This document shows positions 21,242 through 36,382 of a stretch of DNA of 64,000 bases, in pieces; within the stretch, counting starts at the first letter, position 1, and the number at the start of each line of letters is the position of its first letter. A model generated the notes under the pieces. It searched no databases and was not told the origin of the DNA. It was given only the letters and a program-made list of their open reading frames with translations. The position numbers and the translations under genes were made by a program. The DNA is from Fibrobacter sp. UWH4. GTDB taxonomy: Bacteria; Fibrobacterota; Fibrobacteria; Fibrobacterales; Fibrobacteraceae. The stretch covers positions 1-64,000 of the forward strand of contig NZ_FRAY01000001.1 in NCBI RefSeq assembly GCF_900142475.1. Reading direction: 5' to 3'.

Positions 21242-21703
21242 TTAGTTGGGCAGTTCCTGTTCGCCACTTGCGATGGGGGCGTCAGGAGAGTTTCCTCCCG
21301 GCTGCTGCGGGGCTTCGAGTGCGTACAGCGGGAGGCTTGCCAGTTCTTCGTCGTCGACGATCAGGCGAATGATGTACTTGTCGGGGCGCTTGATCTGGAG
21401 GCGCTGCAGGTTCAGGACCATGTTCACCGCGGCGGTATCGAAACCCTGGGCGACAGGTTCCAGCGGAATTTTAGACTGCATCGGGGGTACGATCGGCTTG
21501 CCGCACACATCCTCGAATGCAAGCGTCAGGTCGTGCATGCCGGCTTCGCTGCGCGAGTAACGGATACGGAATGCCGTGGAGCACTGCGGGATTACGAGCG
21601 GGAATTTTGCAAAGATTCGGTCGAATGCACCAAGGATATTCAGACGGCCTCCGGACCCGTTGGCGGTCGCGGCGTCACAGATTGCAGCAATTTCGATATT
21701 CAT
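21242..21703 (-). CDS. DUF6941-like conserved protein
   Basis: A 153-residue soluble protein beginning MNIEIAAICDAAT...GRLNILGAFDRIFA and 'FPLVIPQCSTAFRIRY'. This pattern (early CDA, 'LxILGAFD', 'P..P.CxxAxRIRY') recalls the DUF6941 family, whose function is unknown. The C-terminal ~25 residues are Pro/Gly-rich and probably disordered. Its ATG overlaps the stop of the giant lipoprotein gene by one base (TAATG), so the two are translationally coupled and likely functionally linked. No signal peptide is present, so it acts in the cytoplasm while its partner is exported. Confidence 0.72.
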   Translation of the reverse strand: MNIEIAAICDAATANGSGGRLNILGAFDRIFAKFPLVIPQCSTAFRIRYSRSEAGMHDLTLAFEDVCGKPIVPPMQSKIPLEPVAQGFDTAAVNMVLNLQRLQIKRPDKYIIRLIVDDEELASLPLYALEAPQQPGGNSPDAPIASGEQELPN

Positions 21704-24700
21704 TATTTAATCTCCCAGTTGTCGGCCACGTACTTCATCACGAGCGGGCCGTTGTTGCGGTTGGCGCCGCCCGCATTTTCGCGGGCAAGCATAGATACAT
21801 AGACTTTGCCGGAATTGTCGACGGCGAGCATCGGGAACGATCCGCGCAGGTAGTAGCCCTTGGTTTCGTTGAAGACAGCCTTGAAGTAGGGCAACTGGTT
21901 CTCGCCGTGCAGGAGCCACTTGTTGTTCTCGAAGCGGTATACATGGACCTGCGACAGTTCGGGTTTGCCCTTGTCGTCTATGGCGGCGTAGATGACTCCG
22001 TTATAGATGGCGAGGCTCAAGTGGTAGGCGAGAATGCCTTCGTTAATGGGCGTGCTAGCGAATGTGCTGCCAGTCTTGATCCAGGAGATTTCGTTGTTAG
22101 AGATAGTTCCCTTGCCCATTCGTGGCCCATAGGTATTCACGTCACGGCTAAGGAAACCCATGTAGATTGTTGATTCGTCACAAACGAGTTTTGGCTGGCT
22201 TACATTATATGCACTGAAGCCATTCCACTTGATTAGCGAGTAGTCGGTTTTGTATAGTCCATAGTAAGCGGTGTAATCGGTGGTAACGCCCATCACAATC
22301 AGCTTACCGTCGCTGTTATAGGTTGCATCGAGTTCGCGGTATTTTTGGTTCCCGTCGAATTTGCCGAACTTGGTATTCTTGCTCCAGGCGCTGCCGCTGT
22401 AATCGTACATGTAGATCTTCTGGTCGTCGCTCGCAATTACCACGACGTGCGGATAGCTGTCGCTTTCCTTGCTCACGATTTTTGCGAAGCTGATTTTTTC
22501 GAAGGTGGCGCCGAGCTTGGCGAACGACGAGGTTGCGCCCGCGGACTTGTATACGGAAAGTTTTCCGGTCTTCTCGAGTGCGGCTAGGTAGAGGGCGTTG
22601 CCGTGTACGGTAACGCTGAGCTGCGTCACGGAATCGTTGAGGGTGATGGTTTCGCCGACCTTGTTCCAGTTTGTTCCGTCAAAACGTTTCGCCGCGACTG
22701 ATGTCTTGCTTTCGAGGTAGGCGACAACCGGCTTGTCGTTGAAAATGGCGAGTGCAGGAGAGGTGTTGACGGTCGATGCCGCAAGAACGGTGTCCTTGCC
22801 CTGGTTTTTCCATGCCTTGCTGAAATAGACCGTGCGGCTGACTTCGGCGGCGCGGTGGCGGCTGAGGAAGCCGGGCGAGACCGTTTCGGCGCTGCTGTCG
22901 CGGTAATCCAGCGTAATCGTAATGGATCCTTCGGTTGTCCTGCGGGTGAAGGCCGTGTTGAATTCGGCAATGTTGGTATCTAGGCTTCCGTTCGCGCGGC
23001 CCTGGTAGAAGTTGTTGTCGACATTGCTGAATTTCCAGCGGAAATCCTGCATGTTCTTGTCGCCGAGGTCGCCGAGCTTGGAATTGAAACCGCCCCATTC
23101 CGGAGTGTAGAAATAGAGCGCCGCGTCATCGGCAGCTTCATCGCCGCTCCACAGGTAGACGGTGTCTGCCGCGGTAATGACGCCTACGGGGTGGTATTGC
23201 ATCAGGCGGACTTCGGTCGAGTCACTGAAGGTCACCTTGGTGCTGGTTTCCTGAGCCGAAATCACGCAGACCATGTCCTTCCCCTTTTCGGAGTAGGTGG
23301 AGTCCTTGCCGATTCTGAAGGATTGGTGGTTCGCGGCGTAGTCGTACTTGGTGACCTTGTTTTCCATGGTCTTGCCGGTCGCCTTCTCCTTGCATTCCCA
23401 GGTGAACCAGTCGATGCCCTGCCATACGTCGTTGACCGAAGCGTCCAGTTCAAAATTGTCGCCGGGGTTCAGGTAGATGACTTCGTCCTTGACCCAGATG
23501 AGGGGGACTTCGGTCGAAAAACTGATCTTGGTCGTGTCGCTTGCGGTGTTGCCGTCGTTGTCGGTCACGCGGGCGATACAGTAGAAATTGGCCTGTGCGG
23601 CGGGTGCTTTCCAGACGGTGTCAAAGTCGCTGACGGTTTTCAAGTTGGCAGCAATTTGTTCCGGCGTACCGCAGCTCCATTCGCGCTTGGCGATTGAACC
23701 CGGATCCGAGGGAAGTCCGTTGTTGTCGCTTGCCGTTGCGTTCAGGGCGATGTTGTAGCCTTCGCGGACTGTCAGGTTGTCGTTTGCAACCTTGATGGTG
23801 GGCGGAGCCAAAATGATGTCGATGGTTACCGTATCCTTGGCCGTATTGCCGTCGTCGTCGGTGACGCGGACAATGCACTTGTATCCGTTTTGGGGTAACG
23901 AAGGCATGTTCATGGTGGTCCGCGGCGTGGTAGGCGAGGAATAGGTGAATCCGATGTTTTCTGCCGAGGCCGATCCGCAACCCCATTCATATTTGACCAG
24001 GGTGCCGAGGGAGTCCTGTGCGTTTGCGTTCAGTTCTACGATATCCTTGATGGTGACCTTGTTGTAGTTGACAAAGGCCGTTACGGTCGGAAGTCCGACG
24101 ATGACCTTGTATACGGCAGTGTCGCGGGCGGTATTGCCGTCGTCGTCAGTGACCTGTACCACGCAGTAGTAGGCGTTCGTTGCCGTCGAGGGCATACGCA
24201 CGACTGCTTCGGGGCCGTTCATCGGACCCCAGCTGGGGTTCTTGAGTTCGGAAAGGTTGTCGCTGCAGGCGGAATCGTAGGCGGCGATGTAGCCGAGCTT
24301 GTCCGTCGCGTTCGCCTTGAGCGTCTGTGAACTGTTGATTTTTACGGTGTCCTTCTTGGTCGAAAGTCGTACGGTCGGAAGGTCAAGCAGGGTCGTGAAG
24401 AGGAGCGTGTCGAGGCCTTCTTCTCCGTCATCGTCGATGGCCTTGAAAATGCAGCGGTGGTTCGTGACTTCGGCTCCGGGGAGCTGCAACTTGAGCGGAA
24501 TGTCGCTGACCGATTTCTGGGGGACGCTAAATGTGGTGTCGTGGTCAAAGACGACCATGCCGTTGCTGCAACCCCATTCGATCTTGTTGATGGTTCCGAA
24601 CTTGTCGCTTGCGGAAGCCTTGACCGTCACGATAGAATTAATCTTGTATTCGTTGGAGTTGCTTTCGGTGGAAGCGTTGATGCTTGGCGGATCGTTTACG

Positions 24701-26997
24701 ACAGTCACGGTGGTCGCAGCTGAGGAGGTTTTATCATCCTGGTCCTTCACCGTGACTGTAACGGTGTGCAATCCGACTGCGTTGAAGGATATGTCCGCTT
24801 CCTTCACGTCTTTTGCGGGGCAGGCGCTTGCAGAACCGGAGCAGGCCCATTCAATATGGAGCTCGGTAGATGCCTTGCCGAGGTAGGCTTCGACCTTAAA
24901 GTGGACGGGGTCGTTAAGGCTTACGGTGTCGTCGAATGCGGGCTCAGTAAAGATGACTGCCGGATCATCGCCCAGGATACCGAATTTGACCTGCGTCTTG
25001 ACATTGGCTCCGTTGCTCTTGTATTCCGCCGTCATAATATAGTCTTCGCCCGGCTTGGCGCTGGATGCCTCGCTATAGTCGAGGCTGTAGGTCGTGGTAC
25101 CGTCATCGAGGACCTTCGTCTTCTTGGTGGTGGCTCCGTTGCCCACATCCCATGTCCAGATGACGGAGTCCGCTGCCGGGAAGGCGCCAATCACTTTCGC
25201 AGTGAAGTCGAACTTTCCGTCTGTTCCGATGCGGGCGTTCTGGGCCCCGTTCACGTTCAGGGTCATCGAGGTCGCCTTTACGACAATAGTCTGGGTGGGA
25301 AGGGTGGTTGTGTTTCCGGCCTTGTCCTTTGCGGAGTAGTTGAACTGGTGCTCTCCGTCCATCAGGCCCGAAAGGGCGAGCGGACAGTTGAACACGGCGT
25401 TGTCGTCCTTGCTGCAGTTGAGAGTCTGAGCCTTTCCGTCGATAGCGGCGGTGACGGTGTCCAGGAACGATCCCAGGTCTCGGGCGTAAATGGCAAAATT
25501 GTATTCGCGGCTAGTCAGCGTGTCGATGTTTTTCACGAGCAGGACCGGCGCTACCGTGTCCTTCAGCAGCATTTCGTCGTTCATGATGGTGTTGCCCGAT
25601 TCAATGAACAGGTCCTTGAGTGTGGCGGACTTGTATTCCTTGGCGGAATCGGAACTTGCGGTGGCGGTGTAGGCGCCTGCGTCCACCTTCACCGAGTAGT
25701 TACCCTTTTCGTCGGTGTAGGCGTCATAAGTCTTGTTGCCGTTACTGAATTCCACGTGGATTCCCGCATGGTTGCTGCGGGCCTGGTACTTGGCCGTACC
25801 CGAGAAGGTTCCTTGCGTCGAACTCAGGTCGCCGATGTAGAAGTTCCAGGGGCGGCTGGATCCTTCGCCGGTCGAGATACGTTCCATGCGGACGATGTCG
25901 TAACCGTCGGTAACGTACATGTCCCAGTAGATGCGGCCCGTCAGTTGTTTGCTCGGATCGCTAATCAGGGTAATGACGTTCTTGCCTTGCTGGTTGATGG
26001 GTTCGAAAATGTTCGAGGTGAATTCGGCGGCAATCAGGTCGTCCGGCGTGAACGCCTTTTGGGGCGGCTGTCCGTTCTTGGAGACCTGGGCGTAAATGAA
26101 GTATTGCAGGTTCTGCGGGTTGTCGTCGTCTGTACCTTCGTAGAAGAAGTAGAAACGGTCATTGATGTTGTGACGTGCGCCGTCCTGCGGGTAGATAATC
26201 TTGAGTTTCGGGATGCGGTTGAAGTGCAGGTTCACGCTGTCCTTGGTCGTATTGCCATCGTCGTCTGCTACGATGACGTAAATCTTTTGGTTTCCGAGCG
26301 AGTCTATCTTGGCGTCGCTATTCTTGATGGTGAGGTAGAGGGAGTCGTTGTCTTCGAAGGTCTCGTATTTCCAGACCTTGGCGGAATCCTTTCCGCTGGC
26401 ATCCAGGTCGACCTTGATGTTCACGATGGTTCCGAAGGAGTCGCTTGCGAGAATCGGGAAGGTGATGTCGCCGTCGTGCCTGGTCCACAGGGTGTCCTTG
26501 GGAACCGTCAAAAGCGGCTTGGTGTCGATGACCTTGACCCAGGCCTTGCGGGTGGCCGTACCGGAAGTGTCGGTAGCGTTGTTGCCGTCAAAGGCGACAA
26601 ACCTGGGCTCGTAGAGTCCGGGTTTTGCGTATGCCCAGGCTTGGGGCTTGGCGTTGCCGCCGATGATGGTCGTGTCCTTGCCGTTCTTGTCGGTAAGGGT
26701 CCACTGGAAACGGTAAATCTTGTCGACATGGTAGGGGAGGAGGCCTATCATATAGACGGTGTCGTTGACGGTAACCGTAAGCGTGTCGGGTATGGTGTCG
26801 GCTTCCACGACGGCCGTGTTTGCCATGGAGTCGGCGAATGCCTGCGCATCAGGAATGGGCTCGTTAAAGATGAAAACGCGGGAGTGGTTGTTCTTCAGGT
26901 TCACGTTTTCCTTGACGGACGATTCCCTGGAACAGCCGAAAAGGGCTATCATGGCGCTCAGGCCAAGGGTAAAAGACAAAAAATGGGGTACACGCAT
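21703..26997 (-). CDS. Giant multidomain lipoprotein with PKD/Ig-like repeats
   Basis: A 1764-residue exported lipoprotein of unknown role. The signal peptide ends at the lipobox LFGC (Cys22). PKD/Ig-like modules follow, several ending in a calcium-site-like DDDGNT or DNDGNT motif (VADDDGNTTKDSV, VTDDDGNTAKDTV, VTDNDGNTASDT). Near residues 390-475 a carboxypeptidase-regulatory-like domain appears ('AGIHVEFSNGNKTYDAYTDEKGNYSVKVDAG'). The last ~400 residues (from 'PALAIFNDKPVVAYLES') hold repeated 'xxKIYMYDYSGSAW'-like units that look like a beta-propeller. The start has GAGG upstream. It is the first gene of a two-gene unit with the DUF6941-like gene. A scaffold or adhesion role at the surface is inference only. 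Confidence 0.78.
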   Translation of the reverse strand: MRVPHFLSFTLGLSAMIALFGCSRESSVKENVNLKNNHSRVFIFNEPIPDAQAFADSMANTAVVEADTIPDTLTVTVNDTVYMIGLLPYHVDKIYRFQWTLTDKNGKDTTIIGGNAKPQAWAYAKPGLYEPRFVAFDGNNATDTSGTATRKAWVKVIDTKPLLTVPKDTLWTRHDGDITFPILASDSFGTIVNIKVDLDASGKDSAKVWKYETFEDNDSLYLTIKNSDAKIDSLGNQKIYVIVADDDGNTTKDSVNLHFNRIPKLKIIYPQDGARHNINDRFYFFYEGTDDDNPQNLQYFIYAQVSKNGQPPQKAFTPDDLIAAEFTSNIFEPINQQGKNVITLISDPSKQLTGRIYWDMYVTDGYDIVRMERISTGEGSSRPWNFYIGDLSSTQGTFSGTAKYQARSNHAGIHVEFSNGNKTYDAYTDEKGNYSVKVDAGAYTATASSDSAKEYKSATLKDLFIESGNTIMNDEMLLKDTVAPVLLVKNIDTLTSREYNFAIYARDLGSFLDTVTAAIDGKAQTLNCSKDDNAVFNCPLALSGLMDGEHQFNYSAKDKAGNTTTLPTQTIVVKATSMTLNVNGAQNARIGTDGKFDFTAKVIGAFPAADSVIWTWDVGNGATTKKTKVLDDGTTTYSLDYSEASSAKPGEDYIMTAEYKSNGANVKTQVKFGILGDDPAVIFTEPAFDDTVSLNDPVHFKVEAYLGKASTELHIEWACSGSASACPAKDVKEADISFNAVGLHTVTVTVKDQDDKTSSAATTVTVVNDPPSINASTESNSNEYKINSIVTVKASASDKFGTINKIEWGCSNGMVVFDHDTTFSVPQKSVSDIPLKLQLPGAEVTNHRCIFKAIDDDGEEGLDTLLFTTLLDLPTVRLSTKKDTVKINSSQTLKANATDKLGYIAAYDSACSDNLSELKNPSWGPMNGPEAVVRMPSTATNAYYCVVQVTDDDGNTARDTAVYKVIVGLPTVTAFVNYNKVTIKDIVELNANAQDSLGTLVKYEWGCGSASAENIGFTYSSPTTPRTTMNMPSLPQNGYKCIVRVTDDDGNTAKDTVTIDIILAPPTIKVANDNLTVREGYNIALNATASDNNGLPSDPGSIAKREWSCGTPEQIAANLKTVSDFDTVWKAPAAQANFYCIARVTDNDGNTASDTTKISFSTEVPLIWVKDEVIYLNPGDNFELDASVNDVWQGIDWFTWECKEKATGKTMENKVTKYDYAANHQSFRIGKDSTYSEKGKDMVCVISAQETSTKVTFSDSTEVRLMQYHPVGVITAADTVYLWSGDEAADDAALYFYTPEWGGFNSKLGDLGDKNMQDFRWKFSNVDNNFYQGRANGSLDTNIAEFNTAFTRRTTEGSITITLDYRDSSAETVSPGFLSRHRAAEVSRTVYFSKAWKNQGKDTVLAASTVNTSPALAIFNDKPVVAYLESKTSVAAKRFDGTNWNKVGETITLNDSVTQLSVTVHGNALYLAALEKTGKLSVYKSAGATSSFAKLGATFEKISFAKIVSKESDSYPHVVVIASDDQKIYMYDYSGSAWSKNTKFGKFDGNQKYRELDATYNSDGKLIVMGVTTDYTAYYGLYKTDYSLIKWNGFSAYNVSQPKLVCDESTIYMGFLSRDVNTYGPRMGKGTISNNEISWIKTGSTFASTPINEGILAYHLSLAIYNGVIYAAIDDKGKPELSQVHVYRFENNKWLLHGENQLPYFKAVFNETKGYYLRGSFPMLAVDNSGKVYVSMLARENAGGANRNNGPLVMKYVADNWEIK

Positions 26998-28043: not shown

Positions 28044-28076
28044 AAATGCTCGCGAAACCGCGAGCATTTCGCTTTA
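28044..28076 (+). terminator. Terminator after the prepilin peptidase gene
   Basis: AAATGCTCGCG (28044-28054) pairs perfectly with CGCGAGCATTT (28059-28069) over an AAAC loop, followed by CGCTTTAATT and TGTTTTT. The strong stem may stop transcription from both convergent genes, though the minus-strand tail is not T-rich. Confidence 0.75.
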
Positions 28077-29654
28077 ATTGTTTTTCTGCATTTCGTAGAA
28101 GGCCTTGAGCCATGCCTTGAGGCGGGTCCAGTCTTTTTCGCCATCCTTTCGAATGTAGCTGCCGAAGGAATGGACGACTAGGTTTTCTAGCGGATAGTCG
28201 CCGACCAGCATTCCAGAGAGACCGTAGAATTCGCTGGAAAGCTTGAGGTCGGTATCGTGGATTGTTTCTCCGTCTATGGCGATGGCGAGGTGTTTCTTGT
28301 GGATGACGAACGAAACGTGGTGCCTTTCGCCGTCAAGGATTTTCGCCTTGCCGTAGATGACGCTGTCTGTCGCGGCGGAATCGAGCCCGCTGTAAATCCT
28401 GGAACAGACGTATTCAGCGTTCCTTTCGCATTGGGCTATTTTGAAACCGGTACTTTCTGAACCCAGGGAAAGAATGCTGTGGCGAGTGCTGTCTTCTGTA
28501 CCCACGGCGTGAATCCAGAATCCGATTGCTAAGCTGGAATCTTCGGAGAATGTTGCCCTGTACAGCGTGTCGCCCGAGGCGAACGAGTCTGAATACTGGA
28601 TGCGGTTTGTGGCTGCCGCGAGGGGGTAGATTTCTCCGTGTACCTTGTAGATGGTGACTGCCGAATCCATGGGCGGAAGCATTACCCAGGTGGTGATGGA
28701 GTCTGCCCCCCTGTAGTTGGAATTGCTCCAGGGAAGGCTGTTTTGACTCTTGTCCATGAAGTCGGATGTGGTCGTGCTCCCGAAGGCGCATACGATGTAG
28801 TCGTCTTGTGTGACGTGCCTTTTGACTGGAATCGGTGCGATTAGCGAATCGAGCGTCTTGTCCTGGAGGCTGTCGAGAAGACTTATGGATGGGAGCGTGA
28901 AGGACCATTCGGAGACAATATCGACGACGGCGTTCTTGTTGGCGGTGCGGTCGTCTCCAGGGAAAACACGCCAGTAGACGGTATCCTTGCGGGCGGCTCC
29001 GTCATGGATAATTTCGACCTGGTCATAGTCTACGTAGGAGTCAGAATATGTTGATGCCGGAATATTCTCGATGCTGATGTATCCGGATTCCTGTGCGGTT
29101 TTGTCGTAGACTCCACAAGACAGGGTGCCCGTGATGCAGACAGAGTCGCCCGGGGCAATCTCGAGTGCCGCTGCGTTCAGCCTGATTTTTGCTGTCTCGT
29201 AAAGGTTGATCTCGAGGTGGGTCTCTACAAACCCGGTGTCGTTCAGCAACTCTTTGGACTCAAGAATTTTGTCGGTGATGATATTGCCAAAGGTGACGGC
29301 GCCGGAAGGATCCATACCCATGGCCACGATGCTAAAATCGCTGTAGGGCACGTTCTTGAAGGTGACTTCGTTGTTCGTGTCGGTGACGGCGGAGTCTATG
29401 ATTTCGCTGCGGTCGTTAGCGGTACGCATCAAGGCGACTCTGGGGCGACTACTGATTTCGGAGGGGGCGCCAACTTCAAGATTCGTGTTGACGCTGATGG
29501 TCAAACTTGCAGTCTGCCCCGATTCTGTTTCGGTAAGCACGCCCGCGGTGCTTGTGCTGTCGCTACAGGCGGTAAGGAGTGAGACTGCCCCTGTAAGCGA
29601 ACAGAATGCCGCTGCGGCGAGGGACGGATAAAATTTGAAAAGTCCTTTATTCAT
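28074..29654 (-). CDS. Predicted lipoprotein with LamG-like C-terminal domain
   Basis: A 526-residue exported lipoprotein; the signal peptide ends at LLTAC (Cys30). Residues about 45-160 look like a carboxypeptidase-regulatory/transthyretin-like fold ('ITISVNTN..', 'VTDTNNEVTFKNVPYSDFSIVAMG'). The last ~190 residues resemble a laminin-G/concanavalin-type beta-sandwich: SIAIGFWIHA-like 'LAIGFWIHAVG', 'GERHHVSFVIHKKHLAIAIDG', 'LVVHSFGSYI'. It starts 10 nt after the TIGR02147 regulator upstream (29665-30489), with which it is surely cotranscribed. No enzymatic motif was found; sugar or surface binding is suggested by fold resemblance only. Confidence 0.75.
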   Translation of the reverse strand: MNKGLFKFYPSLAAAAFCSLTGAVSLLTACSDSTSTAGVLTETESGQTASLTISVNTNLEVGAPSEISSRPRVALMRTANDRSEIIDSAVTDTNNEVTFKNVPYSDFSIVAMGMDPSGAVTFGNIITDKILESKELLNDTGFVETHLEINLYETAKIRLNAAALEIAPGDSVCITGTLSCGVYDKTAQESGYISIENIPASTYSDSYVDYDQVEIIHDGAARKDTVYWRVFPGDDRTANKNAVVDIVSEWSFTLPSISLLDSLQDKTLDSLIAPIPVKRHVTQDDYIVCAFGSTTTSDFMDKSQNSLPWSNSNYRGADSITTWVMLPPMDSAVTIYKVHGEIYPLAAATNRIQYSDSFASGDTLYRATFSEDSSLAIGFWIHAVGTEDSTRHSILSLGSESTGFKIAQCERNAEYVCSRIYSGLDSAATDSVIYGKAKILDGERHHVSFVIHKKHLAIAIDGETIHDTDLKLSSEFYGLSGMLVGDYPLENLVVHSFGSYIRKDGEKDWTRLKAWLKAFYEMQKNN

Positions 29655-29664
29655 CTGTCGCCCC

Positions 29665-30489
29665 CTAGTCTAAATTTGAGAACAGGTGGATGTTCATCTG
29701 GTAAACGCCGTCGGCCTTTTCTTGATCTTCGCCGATGATGCGTCTCGCCTTCGCCTTGAATTCCTGCAGCTCGGCTTCGAGTTTCTTGTACGCCTCGCTC
29801 GAGATACTGAAGGTGAGCGTGCTCATGACGGTCGGCTGCTTGGGTGGCGTCATCAGGGCCTGTTTCGAAAGTTCGAAGCACTGCAGCTGGTATTGTTTGA
29901 TCAGTTCGGCGTTGTTGTAGGGGCCGCTGCTGATACTTTCTTTGGTGGGCTTCCAGAAGCCGTTCTCGTTTTTGCGTGCAAGTCCGAGGCGCTCCAGGAG
30001 TGCAAGCGAGTCCTTGAGCTTTCCGAGTGGCACCTTCGGAAAAATCCGCTTTTGAACCTGGGCCATGTCGTCGCCGACATCCATTGCGTCTAGAATCGCG
30101 AAAAGGGCGCTGTTGTACCAGTGGCTGTAGTATTCGTAGGCGTCTTCGTTTAAGATATGCTGCGGGTTCGGGTGCTGCTTCAAGAGCTCCTGCATCGCCG
30201 CGTTACGGATCGTTTCGTTTTTGGCCTGGTCGAGTTCGACCAGGGTTTCGAAGTACTTGGCCTCTTTCTTGTCAAGTTCCAGAATTTCGATAAATTTTTG
30301 CACCATGCGGGGGCTGACTTTCTTGCCCCTGAGAACATCGGCGAAGTAGCTGCGGCTCTTTTCGAGGCCCAGCAGGTTGCAAATTTCGGTACGGGTAAAG
30401 CCCGGCTCCGCTTTGGCGCGGACCGCCTGGTATTCTTCCAGGAACTTGCGAAAGTGAGTAAACTGATAAATGTCTAAATAGCGATTCAC
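29665..30489 (-). CDS. TIGR02147-family regulator-like protein (first copy)
   Basis: A 274-residue cytoplasmic protein of the TIGR02147/DUF4423 type, a family expanded in Fibrobacter. The N-terminus 'LDIYQFTHFRKFLEEYQ' is followed by a helix-turn-helix-like segment around 30-65 ('FTRTEICNLLGLEKSRSYFADVLRGKK'), and the rest is a helical DUF4423-like domain. The start is GTG at 30489. It is divergent from the metalloprotease gene (228 bp between starts) and is followed 10 nt later by a lipoprotein gene. A transcriptional role is plausible from the helix-turn-helix and its position; the target is unproven. It is paralogous to 32797-33645. Confidence 0.85.
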   Translation of the reverse strand: MNRYLDIYQFTHFRKFLEEYQAVRAKAEPGFTRTEICNLLGLEKSRSYFADVLRGKKVSPRMVQKFIEILELDKKEAKYFETLVELDQAKNETIRNAAMQELLKQHPNPQHILNEDAYEYYSHWYNSALFAILDAMDVGDDMAQVQKRIFPKVPLGKLKDSLALLERLGLARKNENGFWKPTKESISSGPYNNAELIKQYQLQCFELSKQALMTPPKQPTVMSTLTFSISSEAYKKLEAELQEFKAKARRIIGEDQEKADGVYQMNIHLFSNLD

Positions 30490-30532
30490 GGTAACTAATA
30501 TAGATTTTTTATTGGAATTGTGTATGGTAACT
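30490..30532. promoter_or_regulatory. GGTAACT direct repeats in the divergent control region
   Basis: GGTAACT occurs at 30490-30496 and again at 30526-30532, 36 bp apart, in the 227-bp gap between the TIGR02147 gene and the protease gene. The first copy touches the GTG start of the regulator. The rest of the gap is very A/T-rich (runs of T and A near 30611-30660). Confidence 0.4.
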
Positions 30533-30716
30533 CAAAAAAATTTGAGAACATGTAGCGCGGCTCACATTTTTGGGAAAAATCGGGAATTTTTACACCGAAT
30601 TAACGAAAATGAGCATTTTTTTTAGCTTTTTTTGCAAGATGATAACACTTTTTTACTACGGCAAACTGGAAAATTTGGTAAAAAATGGATTATTTTAGAG
30701 ATGAGGATTTTGGGAA

Positions 30717-32747
30717 ATGAAAAAGGTGCTTTTTGTATATATAGTGGCGGCGTGCGCTCTGGTCTCGCAGGTGAGTGCTCGTCCGGCTGCTCCGGGATTC
30801 CAGACTATTTCCAACAAAGACGGTAGCTCCGTTTCGATTCGCCATTTTGGCGATGAACATTACCATTATGCCGAAACATCTGACGGCTACCTGGTTATGG
30901 GCAATGGCGATGGCAGCTATGTGTACGTGGGCGAAGATGGCTTGGCGAGCGACGTTATTGCCAAGAATGTCGCTGATCGCACTCCCGAAGAAAAGACTTT
31001 CTTGAACGGTTTAAACCAGGAGGCGGTTCGTCAGAAGCACCAAGAACTGAATGGGGACCGATTTCCCGAGGAAGAAGGACTGAACGAAAACGAGAATTTT
31101 AGCCATGTTCCCCTGATGTCGTACAATCAGGATGGAGTATCGGCGGTGATGCTCCGTCGTCCGACTTCGGAAAAATGGACGACTGGGGAACGTTGGTTCC
31201 CGGTACTCTTGATAGGGACTACCGATAAAAATTATGGCGATTCGGCGGCGTTCTATGATTTTTTGAATAAGCCGGGCTACAACGTCAACAACAACATCGG
31301 AAGCCTGCGAGATTATTTCTTGTATGTGTCGGATAGCCTATTTTCGCCGCATTTCGACGTGTACCCGATCCAGCTCAATAAGGCGTTGACGGACTATGGC
31401 TCCGGCGACAACTTTAAGGAAGGCCAGTTTACTGCGGAAGGCCTTACGGAGTTGGCGAAACGCGCTGATTTCCAGGCGAACGCAAAAAAATATTGCATGA
31501 AAAATTCTAATGTCGACGGGTTTATATTCCTTTTCCCTGGCATGGAAGAAGACGCTCTCAAGCAGAGTCAAATCTTTTGGGGACACCAGTTCTGGATGCA
31601 GAGCAACGGGTCGTCATCTGGCTGGTATCCGTCGGCATACAAGGCGGGTGGCTATACCTTTGACAAATACTTGTTTATTGCCCAATATGCAGATGGTTCA
31701 AGGAATTCCAAAATCAATAAGATGGGAATTTTTGCCCATGAATTTAGCCATGTAATGGGTTTAAACGATCATTATGGTAAGGATGCGAATAAGCAGCAGG
31801 TTAATGGTCCGGGGGCATACGATATTATGTCGCTTGGCATGTATAACGGAACTTCGTATAACGAAGGCAATGCGCCAATGGGGTATTCCGCGTACGAAAA
31901 AGAAATTATGGGTTGGCTGAAACTGACTGAGTTAGAAGCCGACCAAGTTTACTCCCTCAGAAAATTGAGCGAGATGCAGGCGTATTCTGTCACGAACCCG
32001 AACCAGAATGATGAATATTACATTGTCGAATACCGTCCGGCGGAATCTTACGACTCGTATATAAAGAATTCGATCAGTTGGAACCAACGCGGAAATGGCG
32101 TGTATGTGTGGTATATCGATTACGATAAAACGATTTGTGTGACGAACAATAATGCAAATGGCGATATCAATCACCAACGTGTAGCGCTCAAGTCGGTGCT
32201 TGCGGCTAAAGGTTACTATGTGGACTTTACTTATGTGAATAAGAACGGAACGTCTTCTGTGCCGGGCGTTTACAATATTGTGCTCGATGGCGACGACAGG
32301 GCGTGCTTTACGACTTCGCAGGAAATCTCTTTGACGGCATGTCCCGAAGAATCAAGTTCTTCTGTCGCAAGTTCCAGCAGCGAGGTTAATAGTTCCGGCA
32401 CCGAGGTCGAAAGTTCTAGCAGCGAGGAATCGAGTTCTAGTCAGGTCGAGGCGGGATCTTCTTCTAGTGAAATGCTGGAATCCAGCTCGTCCGAGACGAT
32501 GGGCTTTGCCGCAAATGTCGGCGCTGCGCCGCAAGTCCAGATGGTTCTTGACGGCGACTTGCTCTACGTGCAGACCGAAGTGGCTGGCCTCAAGGAATTG
32601 CGGCTGTTCGATCTGCAGGGACATCTGCTCCATTCGGAAAAATTTTCCGGGAATTCGACTAGTCTTGAAATTGGAAAATTCAGCCACGGAAAATATATCG
32701 TGCGGCTGAGCGTGGGTAACAAGCTTGTTGCCGTGAAAAGAATCTAA
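30717..32747 (+). CDS. Secreted M6-type (InhA-like) zinc metalloprotease
   Basis: An exported 676-residue metalloprotease. A signal peptide (MKKVLFVYIVAACALVSQVSA) is followed by a propeptide-like N-terminal region (DEHYHYAETSDGYLV, conserved in M6 enzymes). The catalytic domain carries zinc motif HEFSHVMGLNDHY, with His341, Glu342, His345 and Asp351, the metzincin-like HExxHxxGxxD of family M6. Downstream are 'YDIMSLGMYNG' (Met-turn) and a beta-rich region, then a Ser-rich linker (SSSSVASSSSEV...) near 545-595 and a C-terminal strand (GKYIVRLSVGNKLVAVKRI) like type IX sorting ends. It is divergent from a TIGR02147 regulator. Substrate unknown; proteolysis of plant or rumen proteins is inference. 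Confidence 0.9.
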   Translation: MKKVLFVYIVAACALVSQVSARPAAPGFQTISNKDGSSVSIRHFGDEHYHYAETSDGYLVMGNGDGSYVYVGEDGLASDVIAKNVADRTPEEKTFLNGLNQEAVRQKHQELNGDRFPEEEGLNENENFSHVPLMSYNQDGVSAVMLRRPTSEKWTTGERWFPVLLIGTTDKNYGDSAAFYDFLNKPGYNVNNNIGSLRDYFLYVSDSLFSPHFDVYPIQLNKALTDYGSGDNFKEGQFTAEGLTELAKRADFQANAKKYCMKNSNVDGFIFLFPGMEEDALKQSQIFWGHQFWMQSNGSSSGWYPSAYKAGGYTFDKYLFIAQYADGSRNSKINKMGIFAHEFSHVMGLNDHYGKDANKQQVNGPGAYDIMSLGMYNGTSYNEGNAPMGYSAYEKEIMGWLKLTELEADQVYSLRKLSEMQAYSVTNPNQNDEYYIVEYRPAESYDSYIKNSISWNQRGNGVYVWYIDYDKTICVTNNNANGDINHQRVALKSVLAAKGYYVDFTYVNKNGTSSVPGVYNIVLDGDDRACFTTSQEISLTACPEESSSSVASSSSEVNSSGTEVESSSSEESSSSQVEAGSSSSEMLESSSSETMGFAANVGAAPQVQMVLDGDLLYVQTEVAGLKELRLFDLQGHLLHSEKFSGNSTSLEIGKFSHGKYIVRLSVGNKLVAVKRI

Positions 32748-32796
32748 TAAACGGAAGAGAATGCCCCTGCATATTTGCGAAGAGCAGTGTGGCGAT

Positions 32797-33645
32797 TTAT
32801 TTCCCGCCGACGGGGAATAACGCGAATTCTAGCTGGAAAACCTTATCGCTCCCTTCGTCTTCTTCGGCGAGGAGCGCGATTTCTTTGCGGAAGGCGTTGA
32901 TGCGTTCCACAATGCGTTCGTAGCCTTCTTGGCTGATGCCGAGCGTGAGTCCCGAAATGTGGCGCGTGCCCGGAGGGTCGCGGTCGATAGAGTCGGCGGC
33001 AAGCTTGAGGCATTGCTGGTGGTAGCCGCGGAGAGCAAGTTTAGAGGTCCGGTCGCCGGTAGTAATGGCGCTTTCTGTCAGGATGTATTTGCCGTTGTCG
33101 TCTTTCTTGATCAGCTGGCATTCTTCAAGCAACTTTACCGATTTTTTCGCCTCGTCGGCGGTGATATGCGGATGCACCCGCCTGGCGAGCGCTTCGAAGT
33201 CGCCGTCAAAACCGAATAGTCCGATGAGGCTACGGACGGTAAGGTGACGCCAATCCGAATACACCATGTACTGGGCGTGCCCGAGCAGGTGCTGCTTTTC
33301 GGCGAAACGGACAACCTTAAGCGTTGTCTGCATTTCTTCGAAAGCGGTGTTCCTTTCTTCGGTGGTTTCGGCTTGGTTGAACTTGACGAGCGCGACGAAG
33401 AATTCCGTTTCGTGTTTGCCGAGGCGCAGCCCCGAGGCAACTTTTGGAATGCTTTGGTTTGACAGATTCTTGTCGCCGTTCATCACGCGGCTGATAAAGT
33501 CCTTTGCCTTGAAACCGATCCTGTCCGAAAATACGCGGAGAGAAAAGGCGGGGTTAGCCTCTTTCTTTGCGTTGTAGTAATCCTTCAAGAATTCCCGGTA
33601 ATCCAGGTACTCGAAGATTTTTTTTGTCGGTTTCTTTTCGGCCAT
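32797..33645 (-). CDS. TIGR02147-family regulator-like protein (second copy)
   Basis: A 282-residue protein paralogous to 29665-30489. 'IFEYLDYREFLKDYYNAKKE' aligns with the first copy's N-terminus, then a helix-turn-helix-like segment ('FSLRVFSDRIGFKAKDFISRVMNGDK') and a DUF4423-like region ending LEFALFPVGGK. It converges on the metalloprotease (49 bp between stops) and is divergent from the pectate lyase (151 bp between starts). Unlike the first copy it has no lipoprotein partner downstream. Minus-strand TACATTTA at 33657-33650, 4 nt before the ATG, resembles the local -10 element, so the mRNA may be nearly leaderless. Role as a regulator of the lyase is inferred from position. Confidence 0.85.
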   Translation of the reverse strand: MAEKKPTKKIFEYLDYREFLKDYYNAKKEANPAFSLRVFSDRIGFKAKDFISRVMNGDKNLSNQSIPKVASGLRLGKHETEFFVALVKFNQAETTEERNTAFEEMQTTLKVVRFAEKQHLLGHAQYMVYSDWRHLTVRSLIGLFGFDGDFEALARRVHPHITADEAKKSVKLLEECQLIKKDDNGKYILTESAITTGDRTSKLALRGYHQQCLKLAADSIDRDPPGTRHISGLTLGISQEGYERIVERINAFRKEIALLAEEDEGSDKVFQLEFALFPVGGK

Positions 33646-33697
33646 GCTTTAAATGTAAGAAAATTATCTACTTGAAAGTATTCCTTTAATGTTTTCC

Positions 33698-33715
33698 CGT
33701 TGTCCAGGAACAACG
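33698..33715. promoter_or_regulatory. Inverted repeat between regulator and lyase (candidate operator)
   Basis: CGTTGT (33698-33703) and ACAACG (33710-33715) flank CCAGGA, midway in the 151-bp divergent gap. The symmetry would suit a dimeric regulator such as the adjacent TIGR02147 protein. A second half-site-like GGTTGTC lies at about 33730. Confidence 0.45.
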
Positions 33716-33796
33716 CAAAATGTGACGGTTGTCAAAAATAGCTTTGAAAAGATTGATGCGAAATTTAGATTATGGACACAAAAAGGGTGTACAGAT

Positions 33797-36382
33797 ATGA
33801 AAGATATGGGAAAAATGTTTGGTCGCTTCGCCTTGGTGGGCGTTGTCTCAATTTTAGGAATTTCTGCAGTGCAGGCCGCTGTTCCGGTGAGCGAAGTGGT
33901 GAGTCTGCCGACGGATGCTGCTTATGGCGGCGGCGACAAGGTGGGTTCGCAGCTGGTGGCCGCGACGTACAACGCGGGCGAGGGTCCGGGCATCTGGATT
34001 GTGGCCGATGGCGGCTACAGGCTCTACCACAATGGCGCGCTCCTTGCCGAAGACAACCAGGCGGGTCGTGTGCGTTTTGTTCCGATGACCTTCCTCCCTG
34101 GCGAGAACGCGATTTCGGTCGTGGGCGTGAACGGCCAGGGTGCTCCCGGTGTCATGGTGCAGATTGATGACCTCGACAAGTCCTACTATTCCGGCAGCGG
34201 CTGGAAGGCCAAACCGACCGTCGGCAACAACTCCTGGAAAAACAAGGGCCGCGACCTTAGCCAGTGGGGCGGTGCTACGACTTTGAACTATGCGAGCAAC
34301 AAGCTCCCGAGCGGGGCGGCCCTTACGGGATTTGCCGCGAATACGCAGGCCAAGTGGATCTGGAGCGGTGCAGAAACCGACCCGACGGCCGTACTGCTTT
34401 TCACATTCAACGTGAAGGCCGAAGGTTTCGGCGCCAATACCACCGGCGGCGATGCGGGTAACATCGTGGTGGCAAGCGACTCGGCAACCATCCGCAAGTA
34501 CCTGCAGAGTAACGATGCCGTGACGATTCTTGTGCCCGAAGGTACTTACGATTTTAGGCAGATGCGCAATGCGGTAACCGAGGCGAACAAGCAGGGGCGT
34601 ACCTGGTGCCGCACGACATGCAGCGAGAAGAACCGCGTGACGGGCAAGACGAACAAGTTCTACCGCATCGCCTTTGAGAAAAACAGTTGCGCGAGCCTCG
34701 GCGAATCCGGACTCGAAATCGTGAAGGAGTCGGATAATCTGCAGGCGTGGAGCAACTGGATTACCACCAAGCCCAACAAGAGTCTTGTGGGCATGGGCCG
34801 CGGTGCGAACCTGCGTGGAGCTTCCATCGTGGTGCGTAGTTATGAAGGGTCCGGAAACCACATCTATCGCAACCTCGCCATTTACGACGTAAACCCGCAC
34901 TTGATCGAGGGCGGCGACGGCCTCGAGACGGTGGGCTCCGCATCGAACCACGTGAAAAAGTTTTGGGCAGACCACATCAGCTACAAATGGATCAGTGACG
35001 GCATGGACATGGAATTCGTGGACGACGCCACTATCAGTTACCTGGATTTTGACGGCGCAAACGATTTCAACTGCTGGGGTACCGACCCCTACATGGCACT
35101 TGTCGAAGATGCTCATCTGACATACGCGAACAACTACTGGCACAATACTTACGGCCGCGTGCCGAAGGTGACGGGCGAAAGCAACGGTTCGCAGGTGCAT
35201 CTGTACAACCAGTACGTGGACTACAACCGCTTCTTTATCGCAGGTGCGAACGGCCATAGCGCAAACGCGAAGGCCTACGTGCGCTACGAGAACAGCTATA
35301 TCGATAATGGCCAGGGCTATCTGGCCGAATGGGGCGACAACGGCTACGTGTACTTTAGCGGAGTCACGTTCGGGAGCGGGACAAAGCAACAGCACCGCTA
35401 CAACGGTACGGTGACGCAGGGGGTCCCGAATGCGGCGACATTCAACCCGAGCTACAGCTTTGAAAAGCGTACCGTGGCAAATCTCCCGAAAGAAATCCCG
35501 AATCTCTCGGGCGTGGGTGGCCGCTACGGCAAGATGCCCGAATACAACCAGGCTTTCGGACTGAGCAACAAGGCGGCGACGGTCTCGATGACTGCCCCTG
35601 CGTCGGGTGCGAAGTTCGAAGTGGGTGCGACGGTGACCTTGAAGGCCGACGCGAAGGACAGCGACGGTTCCGTGAAGAGTGTCGCCTTCTATGTGGGCAA
35701 TACTTTGGTCGGATCTGCGACGGCAGCCCCCTATCAGGTGGACGCGAGCGGGCTTGAACCGGGAGTGTATTCCGCGGTTGCAGTCGTGACGGACAATTCG
35801 GGCCTTTCGCAGATGTCTTCGTTCGTGACTTTCTCTGTCGAAGGGACTGCCTATCCTGAAGTCGTGAAGTGCGGAGCCGGTTCCAGCAGCCAGAGCATCA
35901 ATCTGGGCGAACCGATTGTAGATTTCTGCTACACCTGGAGCGGCGCCGAGACGGTCGTGCCCCAAGGCTTCCCGGCGGGTGTTACGACTAGCATCGACAA
36001 GGAAAACCGCAAGATTTCTATCAGCGGCACTCCCACTGCGGCGGGCGAGTTCGCCTTTACCGTCACGGCAACCAACAACGATTCGACCTTTGTCAAGAGC
36101 GGCCGCATCGTGGTGACGGACCCGAATGCTCCCGAATCATCTTCGAGTACTGAACTGGAGTCTTCTTCGGGCGAAGTTATTGAATCCAGCAGCGGAACGA
36201 CTTCGATTGCGCAACGCATAAACCTGTCAACTGAAGCCGAAACGGGTTTCTACCGTATCTTTGATATGCAGGGCCGTCCGCTGTTTGCTGGCGAACGCAA
36301 ACCGGCAAGGATGCCTGCTGCTCGCGTGATGGTGGTGGAGTATACGAAAAACGGCGCAGTGAAGCGCCGCTACATACAGTAG
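33797..36382 (+). CDS. Secreted PL1-type pectate lyase with Ig-like modules
   Basis: An exported 861-residue polysaccharide lyase that probably cleaves pectin by beta-elimination. A signal peptide (ending VQA) is followed by a ~120-residue N-terminal beta region, then the PL1 beta-helix from about residue 240. FWADHISYKWISDGMDMEF near 389-407 matches the family 'vWvDHxxxxxxxDGxxD' calcium-site segment, and 'GRVPKV' near 453 holds the position of the conserved Arg. After the lyase come a bacterial Ig-like domain ('VSMTAPASGAKFEVGATVTL'), a second Ig-like unit, a Ser-rich linker (near 775-800) and a C-terminal sorting-like strand ending VKRRYIQ. The start at 33797 gives the signal peptide; the open frame runs 108 bp further upstream. 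Divergent from the TIGR02147 gene. Confidence 0.88.
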   Translation: MKDMGKMFGRFALVGVVSILGISAVQAAVPVSEVVSLPTDAAYGGGDKVGSQLVAATYNAGEGPGIWIVADGGYRLYHNGALLAEDNQAGRVRFVPMTFLPGENAISVVGVNGQGAPGVMVQIDDLDKSYYSGSGWKAKPTVGNNSWKNKGRDLSQWGGATTLNYASNKLPSGAALTGFAANTQAKWIWSGAETDPTAVLLFTFNVKAEGFGANTTGGDAGNIVVASDSATIRKYLQSNDAVTILVPEGTYDFRQMRNAVTEANKQGRTWCRTTCSEKNRVTGKTNKFYRIAFEKNSCASLGESGLEIVKESDNLQAWSNWITTKPNKSLVGMGRGANLRGASIVVRSYEGSGNHIYRNLAIYDVNPHLIEGGDGLETVGSASNHVKKFWADHISYKWISDGMDMEFVDDATISYLDFDGANDFNCWGTDPYMALVEDAHLTYANNYWHNTYGRVPKVTGESNGSQVHLYNQYVDYNRFFIAGANGHSANAKAYVRYENSYIDNGQGYLAEWGDNGYVYFSGVTFGSGTKQQHRYNGTVTQGVPNAATFNPSYSFEKRTVANLPKEIPNLSGVGGRYGKMPEYNQAFGLSNKAATVSMTAPASGAKFEVGATVTLKADAKDSDGSVKSVAFYVGNTLVGSATAAPYQVDASGLEPGVYSAVAVVTDNSGLSQMSSFVTFSVEGTAYPEVVKCGAGSSSQSINLGEPIVDFCYTWSGAETVVPQGFPAGVTTSIDKENRKISISGTPTAAGEFAFTVTATNNDSTFVKSGRIVVTDPNAPESSSSTELESSSGEVIESSSGTTSIAQRINLSTEAETGFYRIFDMQGRPLFAGERKPARMPAARVMVVEYTKNGAVKRRYIQ

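Follow-up and report, generated by a model that had tools for sequence, protein, structure and literature searches.

TIGR02147 regulators of Fibrobacter are paired with lipoproteins whose juxtamembrane tag co-varies with the regulator

Introduction

What does a TIGR02147 protein respond to, and which genes does it serve? Two members of this family, here termed R1 and R2, are encoded in the window analysed in this study (64,000 nucleotides of Fibrobacter sp. UWH4, contig NZ_FRAY01000001.1, positions 1 to 64,000 of the forward strand), each back-to-back with a gene for a secreted degradative enzyme. A first-pass annotation of the window, made without database searches, suggested that they may be dedicated local regulators of these enzymes. 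The titles of the TIGR02147 and DUF4423 models, both of which match the two proteins, give no function, and a literature search found no paper naming TIGR02147 and none on the role of the family. DUF4423 is named in one paper, for a protein that is up-regulated during growth of Bdellovibrio within its prey (PMC12546842). Likewise, no described transcriptional control of the fibre-degrading enzymes of the Fibrobacter phylum was found in the literature search. Based on the comparisons described below we propose, with a probability of roughly 60%, that TIGR02147/DUF4423 proteins are one-component regulators, each of which would be matched to its own lipoprotein via a short tag and would tune a regulon of secreted enzymes.

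Pairing of regulators and lipoproteins

R1 (29665–30489, minus strand; 274 aa) and R2 (32797–33645, minus strand; 282 aa) match TIGR02147 (Fsuc_second) over their full length with 288 and 300 bits, respectively, against a curated cut-off of 50, in agreement with the family assignment of the first-pass annotation. The genome contains 26 TIGR02147 matches, all above the cut-off and one of them a fragment; in one relative the copy number rises to 85. Genes were called about 7 kb to either side of each of the 26 paralogs. Inspection showed a lipoprotein gene immediately downstream, in the same orientation, for 25 of the 26, mostly with an overlap of 1–29 bp with the regulator gene, and the sole paralog without a downstream lipoprotein is R2. 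Two of the 25 pairs were read by eye, namely L021, where the caller missed the start, and L015, where the N-terminus of the lipoprotein is frame-shifted. A strict automatic caller places a lipoprotein directly downstream of 21 of the 26 paralogs, as compared to 5 of 246 other genes (p = 3e-22), and the enrichment recurs in two further surveys, comprising 62 genes from more distant Fibrobacterota and 84 genes from a scan of named genomes (p = 1e-33 and 2e-30). Of 170 TIGR02147 genes whose neighbour was covered by the sequence, 155 are followed within 60 bp by a gene on the same strand, the usual arrangement being a 4-bp ATGA overlap. The pairing is also present in records titled Bdellovibrionales, Oligoflexia, Myxococcales and Deltaproteobacteria.

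At the R1 locus, the partner lipoprotein gene (28074–29654, minus strand; 526 aa; lipobox ...LLTA followed by Cys) follows the regulator gene with a gap of 10 bp, confirming the two-gene unit of the first-pass annotation. The protein was described there as a LamG-like lipoprotein; its lipoprotein nature stands, whereas the weak LamG-like similarity of the C-terminal region stays below the Pfam cut-off (20.1 versus 27.6 bits). For four regulators including R1, ortholog sets of 30 loci each were assembled across the genus Fibrobacter. In the R1 set, a partner lipoprotein lies downstream in 29 of 30 loci, with very different bodies. Thus, what had been taken for an extra of the first pair only is instead a conserved partner across phyla.

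Opposite R1, separated by the annotated 227 bp, lies a gene for a secreted M6-family metalloprotease (30717–32747, plus strand), an assignment supported by PF05547 (E = 8e-6) and by TIGR03296 (113.5 bits versus a cut-off of 110.8). Opposite R2, at the likewise confirmed distance of 151 bp, lies a gene for a secreted pectin/pectate-lyase-like enzyme with Big_7/PKD domains (33797–36382, plus strand), which matches pectin lyases A and B in a phmmer search (pectin lyase B, 1qcx, 1.6e-11; Big_7, E = 5.5e-15). The lyase is retained in most R2 orthologous loci, while the M6 protease stands opposite only about half of the R1 orthologs, a NuoB-like gene often taking its place. Divergent secreted neighbours are moderately enriched among the 26 paralogs (6 of 26 versus 18 of 262 background genes, p =.013) and also in the other two surveys (p = 5e-4 and 9e-12), so the neighbours of the family are not random, and the putative R2 operator described below is situated between R2 and the lyase gene. 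This much speaks for the reading of the first-pass annotation, namely local control of the divergent enzyme with the lipoprotein as an incidental neighbour. However, a secreted enzyme is missing opposite most of the 26 paralogs, the near-universal neighbour is the enormously enriched lipoprotein, and the lipoprotein carries a tag that co-varies with the regulator (see below), which leaves this reading very improbable. The conserved unit is the regulator–lipoprotein pair, and the divergent enzyme is the minor, variable element.

Several observations were made beside these pairs. Three regulator–lipoprotein cassettes stand in tandem at L015:6153-15628 (genome C5:108-118 kb), the last regulator being a 101-aa fragment, a case of cassette duplication and decay. 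Within this region (L015:7005-7150; C5, ~109.4-109.6 kb) the reading frame of the frame-shifted partner lipoprotein is restored only by a one-base shift close to an A7 tract of the signal-peptide region, which would be explained by phase variation, decay or a sequencing error. A TIGR02147 relative is also encoded on a contig titled as a Klebsiella pneumoniae metagenome-assembled genome (CAMAWH010000033.1, L222), a title that is probably mistaken here. A plasmid search with a regulator query gave no match. In the window, a 1764-aa lipoprotein starting with CSRESSVKENVNLKNNHSRVF (21703-26997) adjoins a prepilin peptidase gene, a neighbourhood that is kept in R1-bearing loci genus-wide.

A conserved tag behind the lipobox cysteine

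The bodies of the partner lipoproteins differ and comprise carboxypeptidase-regulatory-like, Fib_succ_major and LamG domains, one pectate lyase and one CBM4/9 module. A toxin–antitoxin reading of the pairs was set aside, because the partner is a lipoprotein that is exported and carries binding-type domains of various kinds. Nearly all partners display a hydrophobic segment followed by a lipobox cysteine, the predicted first residue of the mature protein. Shortly behind this cysteine the partners share a segment of 6–13 residues, hereafter the tag, with a consensus of about AGG-TETGN in Fibrobacterota and GTxVGNP in other phyla; the distance between cysteine and tag varies from 4 to 15 residues. 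Within the phylum, a profile of the tag separates partners from other lipoproteins, which mostly lack it, with an area under the curve (AUC) of.87–.88. Across phyla the profile performs more weakly (AUC.66–.70), yet a [TS]x[VITS][GS]NP motif can be recognized by eye in nearly all of those lipoproteins.

In the R1 partner of the window, the predicted lipidated cysteine and the R1-specific tag (CSDSTSTAGVLTETESG, with the core TETESG) are encoded at 29517–29567 on the minus strand. The tag peptides assigned to R1, R2 and two paralogs are TETESG, AGNSAETGSPEL, AGIEIGNP and AGGPGSITTNG. In the four ortholog groups a tag is present in 29, 29, 29 and 30 of 30 loci, and it is group-specific and near-invariant, with the forms [TS]ETESG (R1), AGIEIGNP, AGGPGS[IE]TTNG and AGGGPSGTEAGNAI. 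Mean pairwise identity over the four groups is.94–.98 for the tag, as compared to.20–.38 for the signal peptide and.14–.44 for the 40 residues that follow; for the 29 R1 orthologs the corresponding values are.94,.20 and.14. At the same time, up to four synonymous codons occur at single positions of the tag. Since synonymous codons vary freely, selection acts on the peptide and not on the DNA, which rules out that the tag is a DNA operator.

Co-variation of regulator and tag

Among 121 non-redundant pairs, distances between regulators correlate with distances between tags (Mantel r =.29, p = 5e-4), as opposed to −.03 for the signal peptide and a weak.12 for the following 30 residues. In a column-by-column test, in which pairs were shuffled only within genome groups and regulator residues are numbered as in R1, the strongest links connect residues 249, 245, 200/201, 224, 221 and 223 with tag positions 2, 4, 5, 5, 6 and 4, respectively, with Z-scores up to 10.9. 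Residue 245 is Arg or Lys where the tag carries Glu or Asp, and the two regulators with Glu at this position have Lys in the tag. At residue 249, Leu is found with Gly in the tag, and Arg, Ala, Val or Ile mostly with Thr or Ser.

Predictions fixed beforehand were evaluated on 66 new pairs from other genomes, none of which shared 75% identity or more with the training set or with another of the 66. Eight of the ten top links were replicated at p<0.05, five of these at or below.001, and the links 185–tag2 and 207–tag5 did not reach p<0.05. In all 187 pairs combined, 47 links to the tag exceed a Z-score of 5, and 30 of the 47 involve regulator residues 184–264; the control columns yield none in the signal peptide, and one each in the residues behind the tag and in the linker behind the cysteine. 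The regulator residues that co-vary with the tag are mostly in DUF4423. With tables trained without the present genome, the true tag of a regulator ranked 7.7 of 23 on average (random expectation 12, p = 5e-5), whereas the average rank was 11.65 with columns taken from elsewhere in the protein. The first-pass annotation had suggested the lipoprotein as a surface sensor or antagonist of R1. The residue-level co-variation argues for a direct relation of this kind, but via the juxtamembrane tag and not via the LamG-like body.

Sorting signals of lipoproteins are located next to the lipidated cysteine, and one general consensus, AGG-TETGN, recurs across phyla. It could thus be supposed that the tag is a sorting or surface-export signal for an envelope machinery, and that its correlation with the regulator mirrors a shared paralog history. 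Such a signal is, however, difficult to reconcile with tags that are near-invariant per regulator and mostly missing from other lipoproteins, or with a co-variation that is concentrated in DUF4423, chemically sensible and replicated. We consider a sorting function decidedly unlikely.

Domain structure of the regulators

PF14394 (DUF4423) matches R1 and R2 with 91 and 122 bits, respectively (gathering score 30; E = 8.9e-26 for R1), and was detected at E<=0.01 in all 63 diverse family members compared. The helix-turn-helix (HTH) segment noted in the first-pass annotation is less evident from sequence: the Pfam match of R1 to HTH_31 is weak (E = 0.0036, 18 bits versus a cut-off of 27), only 7 of the 63 relatives match it at E<=0.01 (best 4.7e-6), and a profile search of the PDB gave a weak match to a CI-type repressor (E = 0.23). 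The AlphaFold2 model of R1, with a mean predicted local distance difference test (pLDDT) score of 88, does display an N-terminal helical bundle of HTH type, continued by connecting helices, a winged-helix-like segment (residues 143–181) and two long helices (194–213 and 231–254). Most of the co-varying residues are positioned on or between these two helices. A fold search with the model gave weak partial matches to HxlR/PadR-type regulators. A crude predictor found neither a signal peptide nor a membrane segment in the TIGR02147 regulators of this genome, and the regulators of the distant-Fibrobacterota and named-genome surveys lack a membrane segment as well.

A tag of 6–13 residues and a peptide-specific co-variation would also suit a peptide ligand. 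Enterococcal pheromones are cut from the signal peptides of lipoproteins (PMC7117660), and in a comparable manner the tag could be released after lipidation, carried into the cytosol by an oligopeptide importer and sensed by the regulator, as in PrgX-type systems. Yet the tag is situated behind the cysteine and not before it, and no conserved processing context was seen around it in the four ortholog groups, in which both the flanking residues and the spacing to the cysteine are unconserved. Moreover, DUF4423 lacks a tetratricopeptide repeat (TPR) domain, none being matched among the 63 members. A released pheromone therefore appears quite unlikely.

Operators and a predicted R2 regulon

Conserved footprints were found upstream of five regulators, R2 and those of four other groups, each with its own site. 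One operator common to all paralogs was rejected, the GTTG-CAAC form being present at only 3 of the 26 regulators of this genome. The R2 footprint CGTTGT-N6-ACAACG is centred 61–63 bp upstream of the R2 start in 20 of 20 orthologous loci. In the window, this predicted operator (CGTTGT-CCAGGA-ACAACG, 33698–33715), at a distance of 52 bp from R2 and of 81 bp from the lyase gene, is the single match, with 0.02 expected by chance.

The genome has two more copies with N6 spacing, both in a lipoprotein–pectinase cluster 109 kb away. One copy (C1:142900) precedes the gene of a lipoprotein with R2-type tag (C1:142977-144644), followed by genes for a Pel9A-like protein and a pectate lyase; the other (C1:147744) precedes the gene of a secreted 796-aa DUF4859 protein and is kept in orthologous loci. 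In 271 kb, all matches to the R2 site with a called gene nearby precede R2 or an R2-linked gene. No R2 ortholog examined has a downstream lipoprotein next to it, but in 10 of 20 R2 loci a tagged lipoprotein (...AGNSAETGSPELAG) is encoded on the other strand, either immediately adjacent or beyond the lyase. The distant lipoprotein, which was located by means of the operator, also ranked 3rd of 23 for R2 in the ranking test. From the distant tag and the operator copies we conclude that the missing partner of R2 has moved, and a pectin regulon can be predicted for R2. The proposal of dedicated regulators of secreted enzymes thus stands most clearly for R2, with an operator at the lyase gene and a second cluster, while a local divergent pair is not the rule. 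Just before the lipoprotein–pectinase operon, on the opposite strand, we noted a gene for an OLD-family AAA ATPase/TOPRIM protein (L490:5040-6833); a gene with a similar start stands beside R2 in L287.

The R2 data also bear on a further explanation, in which DUF4423 is a dedicated export chaperone or targeting factor that keeps the tag-bound precursor export-competent, its DNA-binding domain coupling supply to demand. Regulator-chaperones of such a kind are known from type III secretion, and the pairing, the ATGA overlaps and the tag co-variation fit equally well. A pure chaperone, however, would have no need of conserved operators before untagged enzymes, as in the R2 regulon, nor would it be expected to have its lipoprotein encoded 109 kb away. 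We regard a chaperone as unlikely.

For R1, the footprint GTTCTCAAAA is found upstream of the gene in 28 of 30 orthologs, but it is A+T-rich and therefore weak on its own. The putative operator in the window, ACTCAAAAAAATTTGAGAAC (30530–30549), has GTTCTCA-type half-sites and is located 40 bp before the R1 start. It is the only R1-type site in the region shared with the M6 protease gene, about 170 bp from the start of the latter. In several genomes the site abuts a TATATT box, a position that would fit self-repression. Apart from the window, a site with the spacing of the OG14 group (CGTTGT-N8-ACAACG; L488:1501-1520, C7:115895) is located 82 bp upstream of a gene for a secreted polysaccharide deacetylase, which may be a distant target of the OG14 regulator.

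Discussion

In the mechanism that we propose, the putative N-terminal XRE-like HTH domain would bind an inverted-repeat operator before its own gene and, in the case of R2, also before genes of secreted enzymes, whereas DUF4423 would recognize the short linear tag just behind the predicted lipidated cysteine of the cognate lipoprotein. Because the regulator has neither a signal peptide nor a membrane segment, it would most likely meet the lipoprotein precursor in the cytosol, before export. The level of the precursor, that is synthesis minus export, could then switch the regulator and thereby set the expression of the lipoprotein and of the secreted enzymes. The precursor-bound form may switch the genes off, which would feed the supply and export of the lipoprotein back onto enzyme synthesis; this sign is a guess at about even odds. 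The variety of tags would keep some 25 parallel channels per cell apart, and the body of the lipoprotein may bind substrate at the cell surface. It is about an even bet that this extends to a cross-phylum class of regulators, each taking the juxtamembrane tag of its cognate lipoprotein as ligand, with dozens of insulated, barcoded feedback channels per cell that read lipoprotein synthesis and export to control secreted degradative enzymes.

Several points weigh against this model. Its support is computational throughout, the HTH domain is weak by sequence, and fold searches of the PDB and of viral models revealed no solved or viral structure matching the R1 model at E<0.001. In the ranking test, the paralogs L022, L026 and L020 of this genome came near the bottom. 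Furthermore, the selection of the seven residue pairs used there had drawn on data from this genome among others, which makes the replication with 66 pairs the clean test. Because tags evolve slowly, they carry more traces of paralog descent than signal peptides do, and part of the co-variation may be due to such descent. The concern is lessened, though not removed, by the clustering of the links in DUF4423, by residue pairs that make chemical sense, by the control columns and by the replicated links. Finally, R2 and its lipoprotein are unlinked here, from which it also follows that strict translational coupling is not required.

The model offers a large, functionally uncharacterized family a role that can be tested, in a phylum noted for plant-fibre degradation. 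If true, it would represent a new route by which a cytosolic regulator is informed of the cell surface, and the code of tags would be a natural set of insulated protein–peptide pairs. Operators and tags together allow the prediction of regulons and of orphan partners, as for R2.

Among known systems, the nearest analogy is found in the RRNPP regulators, in particular PrgX of Enterococcus with its pheromone cCF10, which derives from a lipoprotein signal peptide (PMC7117660). Both systems combine an XRE-like DNA-binding domain, putative in the present family, with a domain that reads, or in our model would read, a short linear peptide from the N-terminal region of a lipoprotein, and both display, or in our model would display, peptide–receptor specificity among paralogs. 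In contrast to RRNPP proteins, the C-terminal domain is no TPR domain but DUF4423, the tag is located behind the cysteine instead of in the signal peptide and shows no processing site, the partner lipoprotein is encoded in the same operon, and the hosts belong to Gram-negative-type phyla. With the anti-sigma factor FlgM the proposed system shares the idea of export-coupled gene control, in which the cytosolic amount of a protein destined for export signals export and determines expression; here, however, no sigma factor is involved, the partner is a Sec-type lipoprotein that would be read via its tag, and many pairs exist side by side in each cell. As in FecI/FecR and SusR-type signalling of Bacteroidetes glycan operons, a surface protein would be linked to the expression of secreted degradative enzymes, but without a membrane-spanning anti-sigma factor or sensor, in keeping with regulators that lack a membrane segment. 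Since the TPR domain that defines RRNPP proteins is absent and the tag lies on the other side of the cysteine, we rate the system as new, while its working principle, a regulator that reads a peptide, is a familiar one.

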